This document shows, one piece after another, positions 12,224 through 41,598 of a stretch of DNA of 64,000 nt; the first letter of the stretch is position 1, and the number at the start of each line of letters is the position of its first letter. Below the pieces are notes generated by a model. It was not told the origin of the DNA, searched no databases, and saw only the letters and a list, made by a program, of their open reading frames with translations. The stretch is from Miniphocaeibacter halophilus (GTDB lineage: Bacteria; Bacillota; Clostridia; Tissierellales; Peptoniphilaceae): positions 1,051,868 to 1,115,867 of the forward strand of contig NZ_CP066744.1 of NCBI RefSeq assembly GCF_016458825.1, in the 5' to 3' direction. The position numbers and the translations under genes were made by a program.

Positions 12224-13527
12224 ATGTCTACAAGTAATTATATCTTAGATTTCTTAGGAATAAAAGATAAGAATATTAAATTTATTAAATTCAGCAATAA
12301 CATGAGAAAGAACAATGTAACATATAAAGTTATAGACGCTAAACTTTCTTATACTCCTAATGCTTGTCCAATTTGTGGGAATATGGACAAGAATGCAATT
12401 ATTAAGCACGGAAATAAAATATCAAATATTAAACTTCTTCCACTAAATGGAGATCCTACTATTTTAAAATTAAGAAAACAAAGATTTTTTTGTAAAGAAT
12501 GCTCTCATACTTTTACAGCAAAAACCAATATTGTAGAGAAAAATTGTTTTATTTCAAATAGGGTAAAATTACATATAACTGAAAATCTAACTATGAAAAT
12601 AAGTCAAAAGGATATTGCTAGGTTAGATTACGTATCTTCTAATACTGTTAGTCGTTCTTTAGAGGCTAATTATAAGGCTTTTAGAGTTAACAAGTCATAT
12701 CTGCCTGAAACTTTGTGTTTTGATGAATTCAAATCCACTAAAGATGCTAAGGGCAATATGAGCTTTATCTTTTGTAATGGTGATAGGAAGAATTTTAATA
12801 TTATAGATATTGTTGAAAATCGTACTCTTCCTTATTTAACTAAATATTTTAGAAAGTTTACCTATAAAGCAAGAGCAAATGTTAAATATATTTGTATATA
12901 TATATATATAAACCTTATATGTCATTAATTAAGGATGTTTTTCCTAATGCTCAAATAGTTTTAGATAAGTTTCATATTGTAAATCTTATTGGCAGAGCTT
13001 TGTTAAAAACAAGGATTGAAATAATGAAAAACTTTAGTACTTCCTCTATTGAATATAAAAGATTAAAAAGATATTGGAAGCTAATTCAAAAGGATTCTTC
13101 TAAACTTGATATAATCCACTTTAGTAAATGGACACATTTTAGTAAGTGGAAAAGCACATCTGATGTAGTAAATGAAACTATAGCTATTGATGATAATTTA
13201 AAGAAAACATATGAGGTTTATCAAATTCTTTTATCTGATATTAGATGTGAAAATTCTAAAGGATTAAGGGAACATTTAACTTTATTTAAGGATACAGTAA
13301 GTGAGCAAATGAAAGTAGCTATAAACACTTTGTTAGAATATTTTGAATATGTGGAAAACACATTAAGTACGAACATTACAAATGGCCCCTTGGAAGGTAC
13401 TAATAATCTTATTAAAAGTATAAAAAGAATAGCTTTTGGATATAGGTCATTTTATAATTTTAGAAATAGAGTTTTTATAATTAAAAATTTAATGAAGCCA
13501 ATAAAGAATTATCAGGCAGCTATATAG
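12224..13527 (+). pseudogene. ISL3-family transposase, interrupted by a frameshift in a TA-repeat
   Basis: The first frame (12224-12928) encodes the zinc-ribbon N-terminus (CPICG near residue 46, CKEC near 85), a helix-turn-helix and the first catalytic region (CFDEFKST). The second frame (from about 12892 to 13527) encodes the rest, including VFPNAQIVLDKFHIV and NGPLEGTNNLIK with the catalytic Glu. The frames join at an eightfold TA repeat (12895-12910). The intact protein would be expected to read C-I-D-M-Y-K-P-Y there, so the repeat both shifts the frame and replaces an aspartate. The gene is therefore probably inactive. The start ATG follows a good ribosome site (CGGAGG). Confidence 0.88.
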
Positions 13528-30409: not shown

Positions 30410-30616
30410 CATATTTAAAGGTTCATAAAACATATTGTACTTTTATAAAACAATATTAGTAAAAATCTTATAAAATAAAAAAATATTTTTAAAGCAATGA
30501 CTAAATTTCAAGTTTTTAAAAAACAAATTACAGTAATATTCTTCCATTATCTATTTTATAACAATTATATAAACAATAAAAATATTTTTATTAATAGATA
30601 AAACAATAAATATTTA
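30410..30616. other. AT-rich intergenic region between nrdA and the envelope locus
   Basis: No open frame with a ribosome site is seen. It must contain the nrdA promoter on its left side; the A/T runs prevent a confident -35/-10 call. Confidence 0.4.
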
Positions 30617-30644
30617 TTGACTTACGATAAATAATTGTTATACT
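30617..30644 (+). promoter_or_regulatory. Promoter of the envelope-protein locus
   Basis: TTGACT (30617-30622) and TATACT (30639-30644) are 16 bases apart, 26 bases before the first start codon. Confidence 0.65.
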
Positions 30645-30669: not shown

Positions 30670-31173
30670 ATGTTTATAAAATTATTTGAAGTTATATTTT
30701 TAAATATAATTAAATTTATTTTCATACCCATTATTTTATTATCGTCATTAGGGAATACATTTTCAAATGTACCAAATAGTGAGCATACAAAAAACTTAGT
30801 TAATAGGACTATAGCAAAAGAAAAATTAAATGATTTTTATGTAGATTATGAGGAATTAATAAACACTAAAGATAACTGGTTAGGAGATGGAGATGTATTT
30901 ATAAAAATTAAAGTAGATGGAGAAATATATGAATATATAAAAAATGATTCTTCATGGGAAAGTCCATGTGAGGTAGATGAGAATAAGGAATATGTACTTT
31001 CTATATTAACTTATGAACTTGGTAATTCTATTATTGAAATAATGAAAGAAAGTTACTGGAAATTTGAAAATAGAACTGAAAATATTGGGGAAGATAATAC
31101 TATAAGGAATTTTACCTTTACTTTTTTCCATAGTGAAGAAAATTACATATATGTTTTCCAATTTGATAGTTAG
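30670..31173 (+). CDS. Unrecognised secreted or membrane-anchored protein
   Basis: This 167-residue protein opens with a long hydrophobic stretch (about residues 5-28) that is a signal peptide or anchor. A soluble acidic domain with beta-like and helical parts (FIKIKVDGEIYEYIK; YELGNSIIEIMKESYWKFEN) follows. No family is recognised. It is the first gene of a tightly spaced group running to 35946 and is 17 bases from the next gene. The ribosome site GAGAGGA is somewhat distant from the ATG. Confidence 0.7.
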   Translation: MFIKLFEVIFLNIIKFIFIPIILLSSLGNTFSNVPNSEHTKNLVNRTIAKEKLNDFYVDYEELINTKDNWLGDGDVFIKIKVDGEIYEYIKNDSSWESPCEVDENKEYVLSILTYELGNSIIEIMKESYWKFENRTENIGEDNTIRNFTFTFFHSEENYIYVFQFDS

Positions 31174-31190
31174 AAGTGAAGGAGTAAAAT

Positions 31191-31664
31191 ATGAAAAAGG
31201 AAGTTAAATATAAAAAGACAAAAATATTTTTTGTGATTTTATTAGTTTATCTTGTATTACTTATTATAGAAAAACCTATATATGAGCATCTAGCAAATAA
31301 TGCTATAGACAGGTATATAGAAACGCAAGGATTAAAAAATGAAGAGGTTTTAAGTGATACAGGGTTAAGTGATGACCACCTATTCGCCTATGTTAATGTA
31401 TGTAGGAGGACTATAATTTTTAAAAATAATCCTAAGGAAGAGTATGAATATTCAATTTTAGGTAGAAGATTTAAGTATCTTCCTTTTATATTAATACCAT
31501 TTCAGAACACTATACGCTTATTAAATTCAAATATTTATGAAGAAGTTATGTTTTCCGTAATAAATTTGGAAACCTTAGAATTGGAAATAGATGAAAATCA
31601 AATATCTGAGGGAGATTTGGACAAAAATGGGAAATTATTAAGAGAAATACCTTGGAAAGATTAA
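31191..31664 (+). CDS. Single-pass membrane protein, paralogue of the next gene
   Basis: The 157-residue protein has a short cytoplasmic basic start, one transmembrane helix (about 10-27) and an outer domain. It shares with the following gene the patterns Y-x-E-x-QGLKNE near residue 45, GRRF near 93 and DKxGxLLxExPW near the C-terminus, so the two are tandem duplicates that have diverged. It resembles DUF3139-type small membrane proteins only loosely. Function unknown. It starts behind GAAGGAG. Confidence 0.72.
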   Translation: MKKEVKYKKTKIFFVILLVYLVLLIIEKPIYEHLANNAIDRYIETQGLKNEEVLSDTGLSDDHLFAYVNVCRRTIIFKNNPKEEYEYSILGRRFKYLPFILIPFQNTIRLLNSNIYEEVMFSVINLETLELEIDENQISEGDLDKNGKLLREIPWKD

Positions 31665-31676
31665 GAGGAGTACATT

Positions 31677-32420
31677 ATGAAAAAGTTTTTAAAAAACAAT
31701 AAAATTAAAATAATAATAATTTTAATGTTTACATATATTATTTTATTACTTGTAGATTTATATTTTTATAGGAAATTTGTTAATGCTAGTTTTGATGAAT
31801 ATGTAGAGGCCCAAGGTTTAAAAAATGAAGCTACAACTGAAAAACCTGAATTAACTAACGATAATTTCTTTTTAAGAGGAAAATTAAAAAGGGAAATTAT
31901 ATATACGGAAAATTTTAGAACCCATTTTGTCTATGAAACTTCAGGAAGAAGATTTCCGGCACTACCACTGGTTAATTTAATAGATTATAAATCAAACATA
32001 GAGAAGAACCCTAATCTGTATAAGGGAGTTAATTTTTATAATTTAAACTATAAAGGTGAAATTATATTTGGGGAATTTGGCAAGGAAGAAGAAAAAATAC
32101 ATGAAGGTCAATTGGATAAAAGTGGTAATTTATTGACAGAACTACCATGGATAAAGGATTATGAATACGATGAAAATTCAGAAGAGGTACAAGAATTTAT
32201 ACAGGATACTAATGATTTAATGGACTATTATTATGAGGATGGTCAAGTAGATGAAATAAAAACATATAATAATTTAAGAGAACTATATAAAGACCTAGTT
32301 AAAGAGGGGACTTTAGAAAGTACATTTACCTATGAAGATTATCTAGAATATATTGTTGATTCAAAGATGGCCGAAAAGAAATTTTTAGAGGATATAGAAG
32401 AAAGTAGTAATGGCAATTAA
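31677..32420 (+). CDS. Single-pass membrane protein with C-terminal extension, paralogue of the preceding gene
   Basis: The 247-residue protein has a transmembrane helix at about residues 10-30, then the same outer domain as its upstream neighbour (YVEAQGLKNE, SGRRF, LDKSGNLLTELPW ending near residue 158). About 90 extra residues follow that are very acidic and helical. It lies 12 bases after its paralogue. The acidic tail could interact with the basic wall or with a partner, but this is a guess. Confidence 0.72.
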   Translation: MKKFLKNNKIKIIIILMFTYIILLLVDLYFYRKFVNASFDEYVEAQGLKNEATTEKPELTNDNFFLRGKLKREIIYTENFRTHFVYETSGRRFPALPLVNLIDYKSNIEKNPNLYKGVNFYNLNYKGEIIFGEFGKEEEKIHEGQLDKSGNLLTELPWIKDYEYDENSEEVQEFIQDTNDLMDYYYEDGQVDEIKTYNNLRELYKDLVKEGTLESTFTYEDYLEYIVDSKMAEKKFLEDIEESSNGN

Positions 32421-32431
32421 AGGAGCGGATT

Positions 32432-32884
32432 ATGAAAAATAAAAAATTAATGGTTTTAGGAGTAGTTTTTATTCTGTTTGCCATTAGCTTATTTGCAGTA
32501 TTTTATACAAGAAACAATAAATATAGTGAATATGTCTATCTTGAGCTTAGTCCTTTAGACTACTCTACAGAATATGGAGAATTTTCATTAGATAATAAAA
32601 ATTTAAAGGCATATAAAATAAAAACAACAGATGATAGTTCTGAAAAGATTTTAGAGTCTAAGGATTGGGTTCAGTGGGAAGAACATAGTAAGGATAAAGT
32701 TTTTGATGATTTAGAAAGGAATTTATTAGCCGTTGGTGATAATGAACTTACTACAAGTTATACAATTGCCCATACTTGGACATACTACATTCCAAAGGAT
32801 AGTAAGGGAAAAATAGTTCTTTCATATTTTATAGAATATGATAATTTGCTTTATATTGTTGAATATGAAGATAAAGAGGTGTAA
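32432..32884 (+). CDS. Unrecognised membrane-anchored protein
   Basis: The 150-residue protein has an N-terminal membrane helix (about 6-24) followed by an extracytoplasmic domain rich in tyrosine and tryptophan (EYVYLELSPLDYSTEYGEF, YTIAHTWTYYIP). It starts behind AAAGGAG, 11 bases after the preceding gene, and ends one base before the DUF2975 start. No family is recognised. Confidence 0.7.
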   Translation: MKNKKLMVLGVVFILFAISLFAVFYTRNNKYSEYVYLELSPLDYSTEYGEFSLDNKNLKAYKIKTTDDSSEKILESKDWVQWEEHSKDKVFDDLERNLLAVGDNELTTSYTIAHTWTYYIPKDSKGKIVLSYFIEYDNLLYIVEYEDKEV

Positions 32885-32885
32885 G

Positions 32886-33368
32886 ATGAAACTTAAAAAA
32901 CTTACAAATATATTACAGGTTGTTTCAGTTATTCTATGTTTGGCTATAATATATATTCTTTTTAACTTTGCACCTAGAATTTCCGTTCAAATAGTTGCTG
33001 ATTATAAACAATTTCAACAATTTATTTATCCTTGGCTTATAATGTTTTGGGTTGAAGGATTGCCAATTGTTCTATGTGGATTAATTTGTATTAAGTTATA
33101 TGAAAATATTGGAAATAACGAGATTTTTACAAGGGAAAATCTTAGATTAATAAGACTAATAGATAAAATAGTTTTTATTTTAGTTTTAATAGTTCTACTT
33201 GCCAATATTTTGTCCATATATTTCTACCTAGTCTACAACATAGGTTTTATAATTTTACACCTTGCCTATTTACTAATACTTCTTATTGTTCACCTGGTGC
33301 TAAAAATAGTAATTGAAATAATGGAAAATGGCGTGGAATTAAAAGAAGACCAGGATTTAACGGTATAG
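32886..33368 (+). CDS. DUF2975 family membrane protein
   Basis: The 160-residue protein has four transmembrane helices (about 9-28, 50-70, 90-110 and 120-142) and the DUF2975 layout, including the cytoplasmic loop NEIFTRENLRLIRLIDKI between helices two and three. Such proteins are usually encoded directly beside a small Cro/CI-type regulator, as here (33377). The ATG at 32886 follows AGAGGTG; the in-frame ATG at 32838 lies inside the preceding gene and is rejected. The function of the pair is unknown. Confidence 0.82.
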   Translation: MKLKKLTNILQVVSVILCLAIIYILFNFAPRISVQIVADYKQFQQFIYPWLIMFWVEGLPIVLCGLICIKLYENIGNNEIFTRENLRLIRLIDKIVFILVLIVLLANILSIYFYLVYNIGFIILHLAYLLILLIVHLVLKIVIEIMENGVELKEDQDLTV

Positions 33369-33376
33369 GTGATAAT

Positions 33377-33589
33377 ATGATAAGAGTTAATATAGATGTA
33401 ATGTTGGCAAAGAGAAAGATGTCTGTAACGGAACTTTCTGAAAGGGTAGGAATTACTATGGCAAATATATCCATTTTAAAAAATGGCAAGGCAAAGGCCT
33501 TTCGTTTTGAAACTATGGATAAAATTTGTAAAGCCTTAGACTGTCAGCCGGGAGATATTTTAGAATATATTCCCGATGAAGAAGAATAG
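33377..33589 (+). CDS. Small Xre/Cro-type transcriptional regulator
   Basis: The 70-residue protein is one helix-turn-helix domain (MSVTELSERVGITMANISIL, then KNGKAKAFRFETMDKICKAL), ending with the CQPGDILEY pattern of YozG-like regulators. It starts 8 bases after the DUF2975 gene, and this pairing is common in Firmicutes. It probably regulates its own operon, possibly with the membrane partner. Confidence 0.88.
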   Translation: MIRVNIDVMLAKRKMSVTELSERVGITMANISILKNGKAKAFRFETMDKICKALDCQPGDILEYIPDEEE

Positions 33590-33598
33590 GAGGACCTT

Positions 33599-34192
33599 AT
33601 GATAAAGAAAAATTTCAAATTAAGCTTTGTATTACTAATATTGTTGTTGGCTTTTACCTTAACTGCTTGTAAAAATAATACTAAAGAAGAAATTAATAAT
33701 GATTTAAGTTTACAATGGAATGCCTTAAGCCTTTATCCATCTTCAGGGGATAAAAATCAGGATGGAATGATAGCCGGGCATACTATGCAGATTTTTGCAT
33801 CAGATGATGATTCTGATAATAAGGAAATAATAAAATTAAAGGATTTTAAAAAAATTCTAAAAAAGGATTATCCGGATTTATTAGAAGCCTATGAAAATAA
33901 AGAATCTGAAATTGCAGAGATTATAATCGGCCTTGAATATGATGTTAAGGATTCAAATAAACAATATGTTAGATTAAATTTATATGAAAATAAGGATTAT
34001 ATTATTTACGATGCAAAAATGGGTGATTATTCAAATATAGAATTTATGTATTTATTCAACAATAATGAAAATTTAATTATTGTTCATGGAGGATTTTCTC
34101 CAGAAGATTTTAGAGTAACTCATGGATTACTTTATAATAAGGAATATAGCTTGAAGGATTGGCAAAAAATACATGAAACTAATAATAAATAA
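33599..34192 (+). CDS. Unrecognised lipoprotein
   Basis: This 197-residue product has a lipoprotein signal (LLLAFTLTAC; lipidated C24). The mature part carries a segment SSGDKNQDGMIAGHTMQIFA and a helical middle (KDFKKILKKDYPDLLEAYEN). It starts behind AGGAGG, 9 bases after the Xre gene, and precedes the first DUF4153 gene. No family is recognised; the context suggests an envelope role. Confidence 0.73.
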   Translation: MIKKNFKLSFVLLILLLAFTLTACKNNTKEEINNDLSLQWNALSLYPSSGDKNQDGMIAGHTMQIFASDDDSDNKEIIKLKDFKKILKKDYPDLLEAYENKESEIAEIIIGLEYDVKDSNKQYVRLNLYENKDYIIYDAKMGDYSNIEFMYLFNNNENLIIVHGGFSPEDFRVTHGLLYNKEYSLKDWQKIHETNNK

Positions 34193-34218
34193 AGCTAATA
34201 GACTTGCAAGGAGCAAAT

Positions 34219-35946
34219 ATGACTATTAAAGATATTTTGAGAAACAGTTTAGATAATTTTAAGTTAATCTTTAAAAGATTTCCCTTGTCAATAATTTCTT
34301 CAATACTTTTAAGTTCTGTTTATGCTATTGGCACAATTAAAAGTGGTGGAGGAATTATGGCAAGTAGAAGCAGTATGTCACTTTTATTGGAGCGGGTACT
34401 TTTTATAGCTGTATTTATGTTTATATTTATAGCTTTATTAAATAGTTTTTTGGAGTCTATATTTAAAAAGTCCTATTATAAATTTATAACTAATATAGTT
34501 GGTATTGCTTTTATTATAGGGTTATTTTTTATAACAAGGAGACAGGGGCATGTATATGGAACTAAAATTTATTTGATACATTCGGGTATTGTAATATTTT
34601 TTATACTAAGTTCCTTATATATTGAAATTTTAAATAACCCAAAAAGTTTAGATGTATATTTATATGGAATTATTAGGTCTTTTTGTATTTCAATGTATTG
34701 TTCTATTATAATCTTAATAGGAACAATATTAATAGCATACATTATAATTTCATTATTTTTCGAACCTACTTGGGCACCTTATGATATAGCATGTTTTGTA
34801 ATAATGAATACAGTAAATTTATTTATATTTTTAAGTTTTTTTCCCAAGGCAAAAAAATATGAAGAATATAATATTCCAAACTATATAGAATTAATTGTAG
34901 GAGTTATAGTTCCAATTATTATTACAATCTTTGGAATTATACTGTATTTTAGGTCTATAATAGACTTAATACAGAAAAAAATTTCCATGGAGACGACTAA
35001 TTATTTTATAATATTTTATTGCATTCTAGCAATATTAAATTTAATGATGTTTAGACTTAAAAAAAGTAATAGGGAAATTAACCTTTATTCTAAAATTCTA
35101 CCAATAACTATGATTCCTTTAGTTGGATTATTGCTTTTTTCAATGTGGACAAAAATTAAAGATTTTGGAGTAATTGAAAATAGATATTTTCTTATTATAA
35201 TAGGAATCTGGATTTTATTTTCTGCAATATATTTTATTTTTAATAAATATAAAAACAATATCCCAATAATAATAATGGCGTCTATTTTAGTATTAATAAG
35301 TTCTATTGGACCAGCTTCAGCCTATAATATTTCTTTAAACAGTCAGGAAAAAAGACTTGAGCATTACTTAAGTAAAAACAATATGATTAAAGATGGAAAA
35401 ATTATATCTAATAATATTACCTCTATGGAATATATAAGAGAAATAAGAAATATTTTGTTTTATTTTTATGGTATTGATAATTGGTTTAATAAAGATATTA
35501 AGGATATAGATTTAATTTATAATACTGATAAAAAATTTTACGAAAATACTTTAAAATATTTTGGATTTGATATATTTTATTATGACCCTGATTTAACAGT
35601 AGAGGAAAATCATGCTCAAAGATACATAGAATTTGGTGATGAATATTTTAAAATAGAAAATATTGAAGAATTTAAAAACTCAATAGAAATAAGTATTCCA
35701 GGAGATAGTGTTGATGGTTATTATATAGATGTTGAAAACAATAATTTGTTTGTAGAAAAAAATGGAGATAAAAAATATATTAGTTTTGAGGATATTGAAA
35801 AGAAGTTACTGGAAAGAAATAATGATTATACCATTGATTTTGACTTAATTATAGATGGAAAAGATATTAAAGTAGCTATAAGATCCTTGTATGTACAATT
35901 TGGTAACACAAGACTTGATGCTAAAATAAAAATATTTGAAAAATAG
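34219..35946 (+). CDS. DUF4153 domain membrane protein (copy 1)
   Basis: The 575-residue protein has about ten transmembrane helices in the first 370 residues, then a soluble C-terminal domain of about 200 residues beginning GPASAYNISLNSQEKRLEHY. The N-terminus (IKDILRNSLDNFKLIFKRFP) and helix pattern match DUF4153. The ATG at 34219 follows AAGGAG; the TTG at 34204 is rejected. A second copy follows at 36054 with the same ribosome site and near-identical first codons. Function unknown. Confidence 0.82.
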   Translation: MTIKDILRNSLDNFKLIFKRFPLSIISSILLSSVYAIGTIKSGGGIMASRSSMSLLLERVLFIAVFMFIFIALLNSFLESIFKKSYYKFITNIVGIAFIIGLFFITRRQGHVYGTKIYLIHSGIVIFFILSSLYIEILNNPKSLDVYLYGIIRSFCISMYCSIIILIGTILIAYIIISLFFEPTWAPYDIACFVIMNTVNLFIFLSFFPKAKKYEEYNIPNYIELIVGVIVPIIITIFGIILYFRSIIDLIQKKISMETTNYFIIFYCILAILNLMMFRLKKSNREINLYSKILPITMIPLVGLLLFSMWTKIKDFGVIENRYFLIIIGIWILFSAIYFIFNKYKNNIPIIIMASILVLISSIGPASAYNISLNSQEKRLEHYLSKNNMIKDGKIISNNITSMEYIREIRNILFYFYGIDNWFNKDIKDIDLIYNTDKKFYENTLKYFGFDIFYYDPDLTVEENHAQRYIEFGDEYFKIENIEEFKNSIEISIPGDSVDGYYIDVENNNLFVEKNGDKKYISFEDIEKKLLERNNDYTIDFDLIIDGKDIKVAIRSLYVQFGNTRLDAKIKIFEK

Positions 35947-36053
35947 TTCTTGGAAGAATTATTTTTCTGATTATAAATAAAAAAATTAATATTATCTGTT
36001 TACAAAAAATATATTAAACTTGCTTAAATATATTAAGCTTATAAGGAGCAAAT

Positions 36054-37799
36054 ATGACTATTAAAGATATTTTGAAAAATAATTTTTCAGATTTAAAATA
36101 TACAATTTTAAGATTTCCCCTAGCTATATTATCGGCTATACTCCTTACTATTGTAACGATTTATGGTAATTTCCAAGAGGAGATTACCTACAGATACACA
36201 GTTTTACTAGCTGTTTTTACTGTGGGAATATTTCTCTTTATTTTTATATCCCTACTAAATAGTTTTCTACAGACTGTTTTCAACAAGGCATATTATAAGT
36301 ATTTAACTAATTTACTAGGAATAGTAATATTAATAGGGCTATATTATTTTGGGAAAAATAGTAATTTAACTAATTATATATACCCTAGTGTATTCTTTAT
36401 AGACTTATTATACTTAACTAAAAAATTTGGAACCATAGTGTATGGATTAATAGTCTTTTTTATAGTTTCATCCCTATACATAGAAAAGCTAAATAATCCA
36501 AGGGGAACTGATATTTACATTTATAAGATTATAAGGGCAATTGGTATATCTGTAATATTTTCTATAGTTATACTAGTAGGAACACAGCTAATACTCTATG
36601 CCCTATCTATCTTGTTTTTTGATTTTATAGACTATAGGTATTTTATGTCCAATATTAATTTAATTATGATTTTAGTTAACTTAATAGTATTTTTGTCTAA
36701 TTATCCAAAGGCAAGCATATACGAGGACTATATTGTACCTAAATTTTTTAAAAAACTATTAATTAACATAGTAGTTGTTTTGTTAATAATATTTGGTTTA
36801 ATTTTATATATTTATTTTGCAATGATTTTAATTCAAAGGCGTATTTTAGTAAGGCAAATTGCATACCTAGTAATTGTTTATGGTGGTTTTACCATAGGAA
36901 CCTTAATGCTTTTAAATATTGTAGATAATAATAAATTTAAAACGACCTATATGAAAATAGCGCCAATATCCATAATTCCACTATTGGGAATGTTGTTTTA
37001 CTCAATGGGAGGAAGAATAAATAATTATGGTGTAACAGAAAACAGATACTTTGTAGTTTTAATAGGATTATGGCTCTTGTTTTCATCGATTTATTTTATT
37101 GTTAATAAATATAAAAATAACTTGCCCGTTTTAATGGTATTTTCCCTACTTACCTTAATTGGAACTGTTGGACCATTAAGTGCCTATAATATTTCAACAA
37201 GGAGTCAAAAGTCCAGACTGGAATATTATTTAAATAAAAATAACATGTTACAAGATGAAAAACTGGTTCCAAATAGTGATGTTTCCAAGGAAGATAAACT
37301 TGAAATAACAAATATTTTAGAGTATTTTATTTATAATAAAGATGAAAAAGAATTACCTTATATTGTAGAAATTGGCGATGATTTTACGCTAGATACAGGT
37401 AAGTATTTAGGCTTTGATTTCTACTACTCCTATGAATATGAAATGGAAGAAAATCCGGAACCGGAAACCGGAATAGGAATAAGCTACCAGCCGGATAAGG
37501 TAGAAGTGGACAATATTGAAGAATATAAGCATATGGACTTACAGACTGTTTTTAACAATAGTATTATTGGAGATTATACCTTTGTTGTTAAGGATGATAA
37601 TTTAGAAATTCATAAAAATGAAGAAATACAAGCTATTTCCTTTGATGAAATAAATGAGAAAATCAATACAAGTATTTCATCCTTAGAATTTGAATTGGAA
37701 TTTTCAGATGGGAAAATAAAAATATTATTTTATATGATAAATGCCTCATCAAATGAGCCTGAAAGCTTTATGGCAACCTTACTTTTATTTACAGATTAA
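36054..37799 (+). CDS. DUF4153 domain membrane protein (copy 2)
   Basis: This 581-residue paralogue of the preceding gene has the same helix pattern and the same hinge, GPLSAYNISTRSQKSRLEYYL near residue 377. It also shares NRYF(V/L)xxIGxWxLFSxIYFI(V/F)NKYKNN before that. The C-terminal domains differ strongly, so the membrane part is conserved and the soluble part has diverged. The 107-base gap between the copies holds no gene. A strong terminator at 37808-37837 closes the whole locus. Confidence 0.82.
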   Translation: MTIKDILKNNFSDLKYTILRFPLAILSAILLTIVTIYGNFQEEITYRYTVLLAVFTVGIFLFIFISLLNSFLQTVFNKAYYKYLTNLLGIVILIGLYYFGKNSNLTNYIYPSVFFIDLLYLTKKFGTIVYGLIVFFIVSSLYIEKLNNPRGTDIYIYKIIRAIGISVIFSIVILVGTQLILYALSILFFDFIDYRYFMSNINLIMILVNLIVFLSNYPKASIYEDYIVPKFFKKLLINIVVVLLIIFGLILYIYFAMILIQRRILVRQIAYLVIVYGGFTIGTLMLLNIVDNNKFKTTYMKIAPISIIPLLGMLFYSMGGRINNYGVTENRYFVVLIGLWLLFSSIYFIVNKYKNNLPVLMVFSLLTLIGTVGPLSAYNISTRSQKSRLEYYLNKNNMLQDEKLVPNSDVSKEDKLEITNILEYFIYNKDEKELPYIVEIGDDFTLDTGKYLGFDFYYSYEYEMEENPEPETGIGISYQPDKVEVDNIEEYKHMDLQTVFNNSIIGDYTFVVKDDNLEIHKNEEIQAISFDEINEKINTSISSLEFELEFSDGKIKILFYMINASSNEPESFMATLLLFTD

Positions 37800-37807
37800 T
37801 TAGAAGT

Positions 37808-37837
37808 GCCGGTCTTAAGATTAAGACCGGCGGTTTT
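37808..37837 (+). terminator. Terminator of the DUF4153 locus
   Basis: GCCGGTCTTA (37808-37817) pairs with TAAGACCGGC (37822-37831), followed by GG and five T; it is unusually GC-rich for this window. Confidence 0.9.
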
Positions 37838-39030: not shown

Positions 39031-39729
39031 CTATTCAAATATACTTATAAACATTTTTTCCAGTTCTTCTAGGGGAATGTTTCCATCTAGTAGGTATATA
39101 TAATTATTATATTCAACTAAAATAGTATTAAAATCTCCTTTTTCAATAATAAAAGCTTTTTTATCGTCTATTTTCTTTTCATAAGTTTTAGCATCCTCGG
39201 TATCTAAAGTTACGCTATCTTTACTAACAATTCTTTGAATATAGGAAATATGTTTTTCGGTTTTTTTGTTTATATAATATGCATCATATTCTCTTGGAAT
39301 TTCTTTAATATTGTTTTCTTCAACTAATTCAAATCCTTCTGGAATATAATTTAATTTCTGTACAATAAATTTCTTACTTGAAAAATCATCCTTGTAGTTA
39401 ATATTTGTTCCTTCCTTAAAGACAGTTACTATTTTATTGTATATATAGTCGGCATAAGTAGCTACCCTACTTGGACCAATAAGAATTACAGCAAATATTA
39501 AGGAAGCTACTAGGGTTAAGGCCAGTTTCTTTCTCTTTTTTCTTATTATAGTCGGACTATTTTCATACTTACTCCTATTTTCCCAAAACTCCTTAAAGGA
39601 AATATCCATACTAAGATTTTCTTCTTCTAGCTTATTTAAATAATGGTCTATTTCACTTTCATATTTATCATCTAAGGCTTTTTCTGCATATTGGTAGAGT
39701 AAACTATCTAGGGAGTCTTTTTTATTCAT
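39031..39729 (-). CDS. Probable anti-sigma factor with extracytoplasmic DUF4367-like domain
   Basis: The 232-residue protein has an acidic cytoplasmic N-terminus (1-70), one transmembrane helix (about 72-92) and an outer domain (about 100-232) ending in NTILVEYNNYIYLLDGNIPLEE, which resembles DUF4367. This layout directly behind an ECF sigma gene is typical of anti-sigma factors that hold the sigma factor at the membrane. The ATG at 39729 overlaps the sigma gene by 8 bases. The signal sensed is unknown. Confidence 0.78.
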   Translation of the reverse strand: MNKKDSLDSLLYQYAEKALDDKYESEIDHYLNKLEEENLSMDISFKEFWENRSKYENSPTIIRKKRKKLALTLVASLIFAVILIGPSRVATYADYIYNKIVTVFKEGTNINYKDDFSSKKFIVQKLNYIPEGFELVEENNIKEIPREYDAYYINKKTEKHISYIQRIVSKDSVTLDTEDAKTYEKKIDDKKAFIIEKGDFNTILVEYNNYIYLLDGNIPLEELEKMFISIFE

Positions 39730-40273
39730 AGATTTCAACTCCTTCTTCTATTAATATTTTCCTTAACTTTTCCTTTCCCCGACTTATTCTTTGACGTACA
39801 TTTCCAACTGATATATTTAATAATTTGGAAATTTCAGAATTACTGTAGCCTAGAACATACTTGCAATATATAACATCGGAATAAATACTAGGAAGACTTT
39901 TTATAGCACCTTCTACTTCATTTTCTATATTGTCGTAGTCAAGTTGGCTCTTAGGGTCTTTTAAATTGTTAAAAATACTTTCCTCTAAATTTATAGCAGC
40001 CTTATTTTTTCTGGAATTATACATATTAATAGAAATGTTCTTACAAATTAATACAAATAGATTTCTTGTTTTGTTACAATTTTCAAATTCTATTTTATTA
40101 AATATTTCAATTATTTTTATAAAGGCTTGTTGAACAGCATCTTCAGCAAGCATTTTATCCTTTAAAATATAAAAGGAAACAGAAAACATTAAATTTTTAT
40201 ATTGCTTATAAACCTTTTCAAATTGTTTTATATCTATGCCATTCTCATCGGCTAAAGACAATAAAATAAACAT
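39722..40273 (-). CDS. RNA polymerase sigma factor, ECF (sigma-70 family)
   Basis: The 183-residue protein has sigma region 2 (YKNLMFSVSFYILKDKMLAE, then AVQQAFIKI) and region 4 (LPSIYSDVIYCKYVLGYSNS, then SNSEISKLLNISVGNVRQRI and SRGKEKLR). The start is the ATG at 40273 behind GGAGG; an upstream in-frame start at 40372 has no ribosome site. It forms an operon with a probable anti-sigma factor and a small membrane protein. ECF factors of this type usually control envelope or antimicrobial stress genes, and the divergent lipoprotein at 40537 could be a target. Confidence 0.88.
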   Translation of the reverse strand: MFILLSLADENGIDIKQFEKVYKQYKNLMFSVSFYILKDKMLAEDAVQQAFIKIIEIFNKIEFENCNKTRNLFVLICKNISINMYNSRKNKAAINLEESIFNNLKDPKSQLDYDNIENEVEGAIKSLPSIYSDVIYCKYVLGYSNSEISKLLNISVGNVRQRISRGKEKLRKILIEEGVEIYE

Positions 40274-40536
40274 AAACTTCCTCCAAACTTCCCTTATGAC
40301 TTCATTATATATTAAAAAAATAATCCTATATAGTAGTAAATAAAAAATATTTACTTTTGTAACAAAAGTCATATTGGATTTGTATTAATTTATAGGACTG
40401 TATGAAGGAGTAAGATATGAAAAAGATTATGGGATAAATGTATTAGAAGAAATATGAAGGGTTTTAATATTCAAACTAACAAAACTGTTAGTCTACAAGA
40501 ATATATATGAATTATACTTATAGTTAAGGAGGGAAG

Positions 40537-41598
40537 ATGAGAAAGAATTATTTATTACTAGTAGTGTGTATCTTTACCTTTTTTAGTTTAGCAAGTTGTA
40601 AAGGAAGAGACTTTGACAAGAACTTCGAATGTGGAGTTATTGAAACAAGAGGTGACAAAAATAAAACTATAATTACATTTTATAATGAAGATAACCATAT
40701 TGTAAATATAAAAAAATTAGACTATGGGGATTCATCTGACTATTTTCAAAATGCAAAGATAGATAATGATAATTTAATTATGATACCGAGAGGTTTATTT
40801 AAGAAAAAAGATTTAGGCAAATTGATAAATTTGAATCTTAATTCTGGAGAAATTATTGAATATAAAACAGGAATCTTAGCACCTGTTTCGTTTTCATTTG
40901 ACTCAAATAATTATTATGTATCTAATACTTTTAATGGGGTTTCTACTCTTACTCAAATAAGTAAAGATAAGCAAAAAACAAACACCTTAAATTTAAAAGA
41001 TGAATTTATCGAAAGTATAAATAACTATGAAAAAAATGATGAAAGTAAAGTAATATTATTTACAGCTACAATTAACAATGATTTGTATAATAAAAGTTAC
41101 ATGTATATTTTAAGCAATAATTTAGAAATAGAAGAAAAAATCGATACTACAGAATATGGTTTTTCAAGGCATAAATCTATCGTCATTGATAGTAGTATAT
41201 ATTTTTTAAATTCAACAGATAAATTTGATAATTTTAATAACATTATAGGAATTTATAATTTTCAAAGTAAGGATTTTTCAAAAATTGTTACAAAAGAAAA
41301 TAAACTTGGAGATGTGGCCTATTATAAGAATAATCTATATGTAACCCATACAGATTTAGTAGATGGTAGTGGTTCAAAGGTTTCTATTATCGATATAAAA
41401 AATGGTTCTATTAAGGAAATTTCTACAGAGAGCCCTAGTATACAAATAGAAATAAAAAATGATATTTTATATATTTTTAGTGGGGAAACTATTAGTAAGT
41501 ATTTATTATCTTTAAATAAAGTAGAAAAACTTGAAGAAGTTAATATTAGAAGCCAAACTGAGGAACAGTTTTACCCCTCTAGTTTTTTTGTAAATTAA
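40537..41598 (+). CDS. Lipoprotein with a probable beta-propeller-like domain
   Basis: The 353-residue protein has a lipoprotein signal (FTFFSLASC; lipidated C21). The rest is a series of beta strands with a repeated pattern of short hydrophobic strands separated by charged turns (YYVSNTFNGVSTLTQIS, IYFLNSTDKFDN, GDVAYYKNNLYVTHT, KVSIIDIKNGSIKEIS), which looks like a seven-bladed propeller. No family is certain. It starts behind AAGGAGGG, divergent from the ECF sigma operon. Confidence 0.72.
   Translation: MRKNYLLLVVCIFTFFSLASCKGRDFDKNFECGVIETRGDKNKTIITFYNEDNHIVNIKKLDYGDSSDYFQNAKIDNDNLIMIPRGLFKKKDLGKLINLNLNSGEIIEYKTGILAPVSFSFDSNNYYVSNTFNGVSTLTQISKDKQKTNTLNLKDEFIESINNYEKNDESKVILFTATINNDLYNKSYMYILSNNLEIEEKIDTTEYGFSRHKSIVIDSSIYFLNSTDKFDNFNNIIGIYNFQSKDFSKIVTKENKLGDVAYYKNNLYVTHTDLVDGSGSKVSIIDIKNGSIKEISTESPSIQIEIKNDILYIFSGETISKYLLSLNKVEKLEEVNIRSQTEEQFYPSSFFVN

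Follow-up and report, generated by a model that had tools for sequence, protein, structure and literature searches.

A stretch of 64,000 nucleotides of the Miniphocaeibacter halophilus genome (contig NZ_CP066744.1; hereafter the window) carries at 30670-37799 nine genes, numbered here 1 to 9, that include a DUF2975 membrane protein, a small Xre regulator and two DUF4153 membrane proteins, and that are very likely co-transcribed. Comparison across the class indicates that the conserved unit is DUF2975-Xre followed by an output gene, and that the output differs between lineages. On balance, the locus is probably an autoregulated envelope operon, in which Xre would act as autorepressor and DUF2975 as membrane sensor, with a changeable cargo of envelope proteins. 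As far as sequence can carry the case, four elements support it: the apparent operon, the conserved core, a predicted operator on the promoter, and a conserved tail on DUF2975. A first-pass annotation of the same DNA had grouped the nine products as a possible membrane complex with a built-in regulator.

All nine open reading frames (ORFs) lie on the + strand at the coordinates first annotated (Table 1), between a divergent gene that we take to be nrdE on one side and a DUF554 gene on the other; the source genome (G000) is one contig of 2.39 Mb. Successive genes are separated by 17, 12, 11, 1, 8, 9, 26, and 107 nt if DUF2975 starts at ATG 32886 (the ORF list gives 32838) and the first DUF4153 at ATG 34219 (listed as TTG 34204), both of which are better placed than the listed starts. 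The terminator behind gene 9 is the single convincing one of the locus; a second terminator-like match, with a 5-bp stem, falls within the Xre gene on both strands. Promoter-like matches are not above shuffles (84 versus 77.7, standard deviation 10.4), so the promoter call rests on its conservation in a sister species, G001, and on the operator described below. The window has no Rfam match. Given the shared strand, short gaps, one promoter and one convincing terminator, the annotated operon appears to be real. Its supposed outward orientation also holds in the main, although the seven products counted originally become eight of nine that are membrane-bound or exported (judged by hydropathy and by eye), with Xre the sole cytoplasmic one.

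The regulator and its core partners score above the Pfam thresholds. DUF2975 (PF11188) scores 52.4 bits against a Pfam gathering score of 27, the HTH_26-type Xre (PF13443) 95.6 against 22, and the two DUF4153 proteins (PF13687) 33.4 and 51.8 against 27 for genes 8 and 9, respectively, as the annotation had them. For DUF3139 (PF11337, gathering score 27.3), gene 2 reaches 42.6 bits, and its paralogue gene 3 falls below at 14.3 bits (E 0.064); the kinship of these two single-pass proteins, also noticed earlier, is borne out by direct comparison (phmmer 8e-25). Genes 1, 4, and 7 have no Pfam match over the cut-off.

The case for autoregulation comes from the DNA in front of these operons. Fifty-two upstream sequences were compared (the window, 40 survey loci, and 11 other loci), taken upstream of gene 1 in the window and upstream of DUF2975 in the others. 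When pairs of spaced pentamers were enumerated, the best pair occurred in 29 sequences, versus 5 in three shuffles. A palindrome, TTTATYG-N5-CRATAAA, is present with at most two mismatches in 43 of the 52 regions, against 0.4 expected, where the null expectations are shuffles and some of the loci (for example, L103 and L104) are close relatives; the pattern counted was TTTATTG-N5-CGATAAA together with its symmetric variants. A promoter is recognisable in 31 of the 43 operator loci (5 expected; the other 12 have none under the rules applied), and 30 of these 31 fall into two fixed registers. In one, the TTG of the site forms the -35 box, with the -10 box at 16-18 nt (13/43 loci, the window included; 2.0 expected). 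In the other, the promoter lies just downstream of the operator (18/43 loci, 3.0 expected), at offset 25 in 17 of them, and in our own reading the second half-site, TATTG, would then cover the -35 box. Because the operator covers the -35 box of the regulator's own promoter, Xre would be expected to repress, which gives the built-in regulator of the first-pass annotation a predicted site on the operon itself.

The site is also sparse. Each of the four genomes searched that have the DUF2975-Xre-DUF4153 trio (G000, G001, G048, and G073) contains one exact operator, before the trio operon. Across 1.14 Mb surrounding 80 DUF4153 loci there are four exact operators, each a short way ahead of a DUF4153 gene or of the operon containing it: two belong to the trio and two lie in genomes labelled Proteiniclasticum ruminis. 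At the latter (L179, position 7446; L184, position 7725), the exact operator and a promoter point at a DUF4153 gene that stands alone some 250 nt further on, with DUF2975 and Xre not nearby; control of that gene in trans is possible.

How widely the core extends was surveyed from the regulator outward. Matches to the window Xre at E<=1e-12 occur in 103 of 245 genomes of the class, many of them 65-83% identical. Fifty-six regions, each entered from its Xre match, were chosen by eye, largely among the top-scoring matches; several close relatives and frames with stops were passed over, which makes this a selected and not a random sample. The ORF caller detected Xre in 41 of these 56 regions, and in 22 of the 41 a DUF4153 gene follows within three genes on the same strand. 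Hidden Markov models (HMMs) built from halves of the 22 raise the number of regions with a DUF4153 protein to 29 of 56, the seven beyond the 22 being HMM calls only. Over all loci examined up to that point, 26 of 33 polytopic downstream neighbours match Pfam DUF4153 (four of them preselected), and four others belong to known transporter families; 22 of the 26 were assigned to the survey by elimination and by HMMs from either half. One of the 15 regions without a called Xre, L137, does contain DUF2975, Xre, and a different small output protein (GDG, below) consecutively when its frames are read. In three further loci (L092, L094, and L097), the third gene, behind DUF2975-Xre, encodes a polytopic protein of 414-423 aa that, by elimination, has no Pfam match at 0.01 and that carries [YF]G[VI]T.NR, as DUF4153 does; these are possibly a distant DUF4153 branch. 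A second Xre in the source genome (G000:C1:1731386-1731580, locus L146), 48% identical to the first, has as neighbours a polytopic protein of 331 aa and a lipobox-bearing protein of 308 aa.

Within the Peptoniphilaceae, DUF2975 matches occur in 52 of 100 genomes and DUF4153 matches in 44, and the two are adjacent in five (G000, G001, G048, G073, and G089, from tables compared by eye). Core order and strand are kept in all four relatives; three of them, G048, G073, and G089, belong to one genus (the Lagierella group) and have the trio in identical order at a different chromosomal place. G030 differs, with DUF4153 first, then a DUF2975-like protein, then Xre. Neither DUF2975 nor DUF4153 is matched in G002, a third genome of the window's own genus, where different genes flank DUF554.

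The nearest relative with the locus is the sister species G001, a Gallicola metagenome-assembled genome (DUUN01000014.1), in which only DUF2975, Xre, and one DUF4153 gene (L057, the same as L166) stand at this site, flanked likewise by divergent nrdE and by DUF554. This assembly is fragmented and has a listed contamination of 9%; apart from a few genes, the stretch used agrees gene for gene with the window to either side of the locus. DNA identity is 93% up to 30665, in the promoter leader, 75% over the DUF2975-Xre stretch, and 92% again from 36044 onward. Two blocks are absent from G001: genes 1-4, which in the window lie behind the operator and leader and ahead of DUF2975, and genes 7-8, which separate Xre from gene 9. 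The edges of both blocks are clean in the alignment; the edge between Xre and gene 9 falls at AGGAG, a ribosome-binding sequence common to both species.

This comparison bears directly on how the nine genes belong together. Their common direction, short gaps, single promoter and single terminator, and the eight membrane-bound or exported products, could suggest that all nine form one dedicated membrane complex or pathway, as first proposed. That proposal is improbable, given that the sister species keeps three of the nine genes at the site, that output varies by lineage, and that genes 4 and 7 match only weakly elsewhere. Nor do the DUF3139 genes travel with the locus: matches occur in 26 of 100 Peptoniphilaceae genomes, and, with positions compared by eye, only those of the window lie within 10 kb of DUF2975 or DUF4153 (the next nearest are about 11-13 kb away in G023, G096, and G109). 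Genes 2 and 3 thus have relatives that occur independently of the core, the pattern that the annotation had named as pointing to a chance grouping. The clean edges of the two blocks would suit a chance set placed behind a convenient promoter, with no common role and with DUF2975-Xre-DUF4153 as the only functional unit. We consider this unlikely, though well short of negligible, since every extra product is exported or membrane-bound, gene 1 probably belongs to a family that accompanies the same regulator elsewhere, and gene 8, a copy that parted from gene 9 long ago, still has an intact ORF.

The family in question provides the second type of output. Several genomes, of Peptoniphilaceae and of others, have behind Xre a gene for a small protein, either exported or single-pass, that bears an F.GDG motif. 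A model (HMM) made from seven of these GDG proteins, with gene 1 excluded, recovers gene 1 at 1.6e-4 as well as L147_4, L137_8, and L120_7, each directly after an Xre match; a ten-member model gives gene 1 E=1.9e-3, and BLAST matches it at 2e-4 to L248_7, in which membrane helices precede the GDG part. The comparison by hhalign gives a probability of 37%, and a search of the 245 genomes with GDG at E<=1e-4 did not reach gene 1. Gene 1 is a probable member of the family, in which case the window operon would join both output types, GDG and DUF4153. GDG matches occur in 18 of the 245 genomes and, from a scan of the loci, lie away from DUF2975/Xre in 11 of these 18. At two such places (L248 4236-5387 and L249 4277-5359), the GDG domain stands behind four or five membrane helices. 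Derivation of GDG from a shortened DUF4153 C-terminal domain was considered and rejected (hhalign probability 0.7%), and a sequence search of solved structures with GDG gave nothing below 0.2.

The remaining extra genes, namely 2-4, 7, and 8, look like lineage-specific additions. Gene 4 has weak matches only in other genomes and compares with GDG at an HMM E of 0.56 and, for A4, at an hhalign probability of 67% over 49 columns. Gene 7 was examined as a conserved partner and dropped: it has matches in 4 of 100 family genomes (E<=1e-3), its own included, and the stretches surrounding the three weak matches elsewhere contain no DUF2975 or Xre.

In a maximum-likelihood tree, gene 8, with an end branch of 1.36, is sister to the pair formed by gene 9 and the G001 protein (support 100/99); from this placement the duplication looks older than the species split, and G001 has probably lost genes 7-8. 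Alternatively, gene 8, which was flagged in the tree for its letter make-up, may have been acquired by transfer from an unsampled species. The AlphaFold2 model of gene 9 (pLDDT 85.4) has a multi-helix membrane part followed by an alpha/beta C-terminal domain at 396-581, which modelled alone reaches 83.3. Foldseek against the PDB (E<=0.001) found no match, a Cache-like fold included, for either the whole model or this domain, and a sequence search of solved structures with DUF4153 gave nothing below 0.6. Two structural candidates from VIA were set aside: the best for the full model (Z 10.2, root-mean-square deviation [rmsd] 6.0, 171 aligned; G-protein-coupled receptor helices) is of a kind common for helical bundles, the best for the C-terminal domain (Z 6.0, rmsd 3.6, 95 aligned) is an S-layer domain, and no fold is claimed on either. 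One source records that DUF4153 was once placed with Cache sensors and later marked for removal from that clan as unrelated (PMC4822843).

DUF2975 is the proposed link between the envelope and Xre. In 49 aligned DUF2975 proteins, conservation peaks at a single invariant Phe, located between helices 2 and 3 (the TM2-TM3 loop), and over the last dozen residues, a tail of the form A...K.ENDLTI (Thr 96%, Ala 86%, Glu and Lys 82%). Codons in the tail vary, with all four used for threonine and at least five for leucine, so the constraint acts on the protein. Four hydrophobic helices and a basic N-terminus suggest that both the Phe loop and the tail should be cytoplasmic. Between the window and G001, DUF2975 is 53% identical, beside an Xre that is 100% identical over 69 aa; 18 other well-aligned shared proteins are 85-100% identical (three partly aligned rows at 96, 90, and 44%, the last a domain match, and the paralogue gene 8 at 40% are left out). 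This divergence next to a fixed Xre (32886-33589) may reflect turnover of the sensor or replacement of an allele. A Lagierella pair gives 74% for DUF2975, 82% for DUF4153, and 99% for Xre. Among solved structures, Xre matches 8q86 and 3tyr at about 1e-3.

A known circuit offers a precedent for this arrangement. SdpR is an ArsR-type protein. In the SdpI/SdpR immunity circuit described for Bacillus subtilis, the repressor is captured at the membrane (PMC1626106). Both systems place a polytopic membrane protein and a small autorepressor in one operon, and here too, at the level of sequence, a palindrome sits on the regulator's own promoter; capture is our proposal from the conserved tail. The likeness is one of circuit logic, not a sequence comparison with SdpI, and the present operon differs in carrying further envelope genes. 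The literature searched contained nothing specific on membrane capture of an Xre protein.

By this logic, Xre would bind the palindrome at 30613-30631 over the -35 box and repress the whole operon, while DUF2975 would perceive a signal in or outside the membrane. The cytoplasmic tail of DUF2975 may hold or free Xre, and the signal would thus lift repression. Derepression would raise the level of the envelope proteins, with the DUF4153 protein of gene 9 as the conserved partner and, as lineage-specific cargo, the products of genes 1 (probably GDG-type), 2 and 3 (DUF3139-type), 4, 7 (the lipoprotein), and 8 (the diverged second DUF4153). What the cargo does is a matter for tentative suggestion. 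Because the sensor changes fast and the cargo is all envelope, the best-fitting guess is that it shields the membrane from a membrane-active agent, for instance an antimicrobial peptide, or adapts the membrane to it, a proposal we hold weakly. More broadly, and with similar reserve, one can imagine an apparently undescribed, widespread one-operon switch in which DUF2975 senses an envelope ligand, the ENDLTI tail captures Xre, and exchangeable cargo (DUF4153 and GDG proteins, joined here by the DUF3139 proteins and a lipoprotein) is released as an immunity response; the sensor would turn over quickly along with its ligands while Xre and the operator stay fixed.

Several observations weigh against this picture. 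In a reverse survey (one peptide pattern; the best 80 of 272 confirmed DUF4153 stretches), DUF4153 of the window's subfamily stands mostly alone, with DUF2975/Xre in the flanks of 3 of 80 loci and adjacent in 2; since so few have them, DUF4153 does not need the regulator, though the regulator predicts DUF4153. The operator seed was derived from the same sequences in which it was later counted, no site with two or fewer mismatches is found in 9 of the 52 loci, and G002, which lacks the trio, has one exact operator, inside an ORF. DUF2975 is not the fastest protein in the Lagierella pair, where a neighbouring 119-aa protein is 63% identical. YozG-type Xre proteins are found outside such loci too, for example in restriction-modification operons (PMC12376442). 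With one mismatch allowed, the site is roughly as frequent as its reversed control (site/control: G000 7/10, G001 19/18, G002 11/10, G048 5/5, and G073 2/7), and a wider Xre regulon is not supported; with exact sites being single, the same counts point to Xre as a local autoregulator.

The DUF2975-Xre pair itself is not new. We take YoaS to be a DUF2975 protein and YozG to be its Xre. As here, the YoaS-like gene of that pair is followed directly by an HTH_26 Xre. It was recorded in 2009 as a conserved pair, the membrane protein being described as a 'likely permease' (PMC2701414), and the available text of that record covers the pair only, without the third gene (DUF4153/GDG), the operator, or the tail motif of the present locus. 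The setting was a screen for toxin-antitoxin systems (Makarova et al. 2009), which met the pair in 32 cases (PMC2701414), and a module of that kind could be imagined here, in which an antitoxin-type repressor, Xre, would be paired with a membrane toxin, either DUF2975 or DUF4153. A small Xre autoregulator does adjoin a membrane protein, and the same authors told a reviewer that membrane-protein pairs could still be novel systems (PMC2701414). Yet they omitted the pair, no type II system with a membrane component being known then (PMC2701414), and the pair often heads a longer operon with an envelope gene behind; we regard a toxin-antitoxin role as very improbable.

Other records are scattered. 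A Streptomyces peptide cluster lists a DUF2975 gene and then a helix-turn-helix gene (cppC-cppD; PMC7827011). XRE.MhoVI of Mycoplasma hominis is a YozG-subfamily Xre heading an operon, from a group termed barely characterised; it differs in being followed by methyltransferase and restriction enzyme genes, the available text mentions no membrane partner, and we liken it by description only (PMC12376442). On a plasmid of Staphylococcus epidermidis, DUF3139 and a lactococcin-972-type bacteriocin are encoded by neighbouring genes (PMC8765612), a single case that serves as a lead only. Bare mentions include YozG as one row in a transcriptome table (PMC4326333) and one in a gene table (PMC9239279), a Klebsiella michiganensis mcr-8.6 island that includes DUF2975 (PMC12708576), and a gene table from S. 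epidermidis that lists DUF3139 (PMC7186384); YozG is not named in the main text of PMC12055941. Full-text literature on DUF4153, DUF2975, DUF4173, DUF3139, and YozG/YoaS, with subscription papers mostly outside its scope, yielded no family function and no trio, operator or tail in the passages returned, in line with the annotation's view that none of the families here has an established function.

The pair has thus been on record since 2009, and the literature found assigns it no output. The present locus ties three functionally unassigned families (DUF2975, DUF4153, and the unnamed GDG) to one regulator with a specific, testable predicted site and a proposed docking tail. A searchable 19-bp site and a diverging sensor with a fixed DNA-binding partner should make direct experiments possible. 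If the ligand were an antimicrobial peptide or a bacteriocin, anaerobic bacteria would have in this module a general immunity switch.

Table 1. Features of the nine-gene locus (positions in the window; G001 is the sister species)
Feature	Position	Strand	Evidence and remarks
Predicted Xre operator TTTATTGACTTACGATAAA	30613..30631	+	Covers -35 box of operon promoter; identical in G001
Promoter TTGACT-16-TATACT	30617..30644	+	Kept in G001; geometry common to 13/43 operator loci
Gene 1, exported protein, probable GDG-family member	30670..31173	+	HMM built without gene 1, E=1.6e-4
Gene 2, single-pass DUF3139 protein	31191..31664	+	PF11337 9e-11
Gene 3, single-pass paralogue of gene 2, longer C-terminus	31677..32420	+	phmmer versus gene 2, 8e-25
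Gene 4, single-pass exported protein	32432..32884	+	GDG comparison: hhalign 67%/49 columns; HMM E=0.56
Gene 5, DUF2975, four-helix membrane protein, proposed sensor	32886..33368	+	PF11188 6.5e-14; conserved C-terminal tail
Gene 6, Xre (HTH_26), proposed autorepressor	33377..33589	+	PF13443 2e-27
Gene 7, lipoprotein, apparently lineage-specific	33599..34192	+	Lipobox LTAC (by eye)
Gene 8, second DUF4153 copy, fast-evolving	34219..35946	+	PF13687 3.6e-8; end branch 1.36
Gene 9, DUF4153 core copy	36054..37799	+	PF13687 9.1e-14; 92% to G001
Intrinsic terminator	37807..37832	+	11-pair stem, T-rich tail

Two further places in the window deserve mention. After the locus come three genes, named by eye, within 39031-41598: one for a putative anti-sigma factor at 39031-39738, a divergent one for an ECF-type sigma factor at 39722-40372, and one for a lipoprotein at 40537-41598; all three are absent at the corresponding place in G001 (L057). 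At 12224-13527, a transposase-like gene, whose family we name only presumptively, extends over two overlapping ORFs and is apparently broken.

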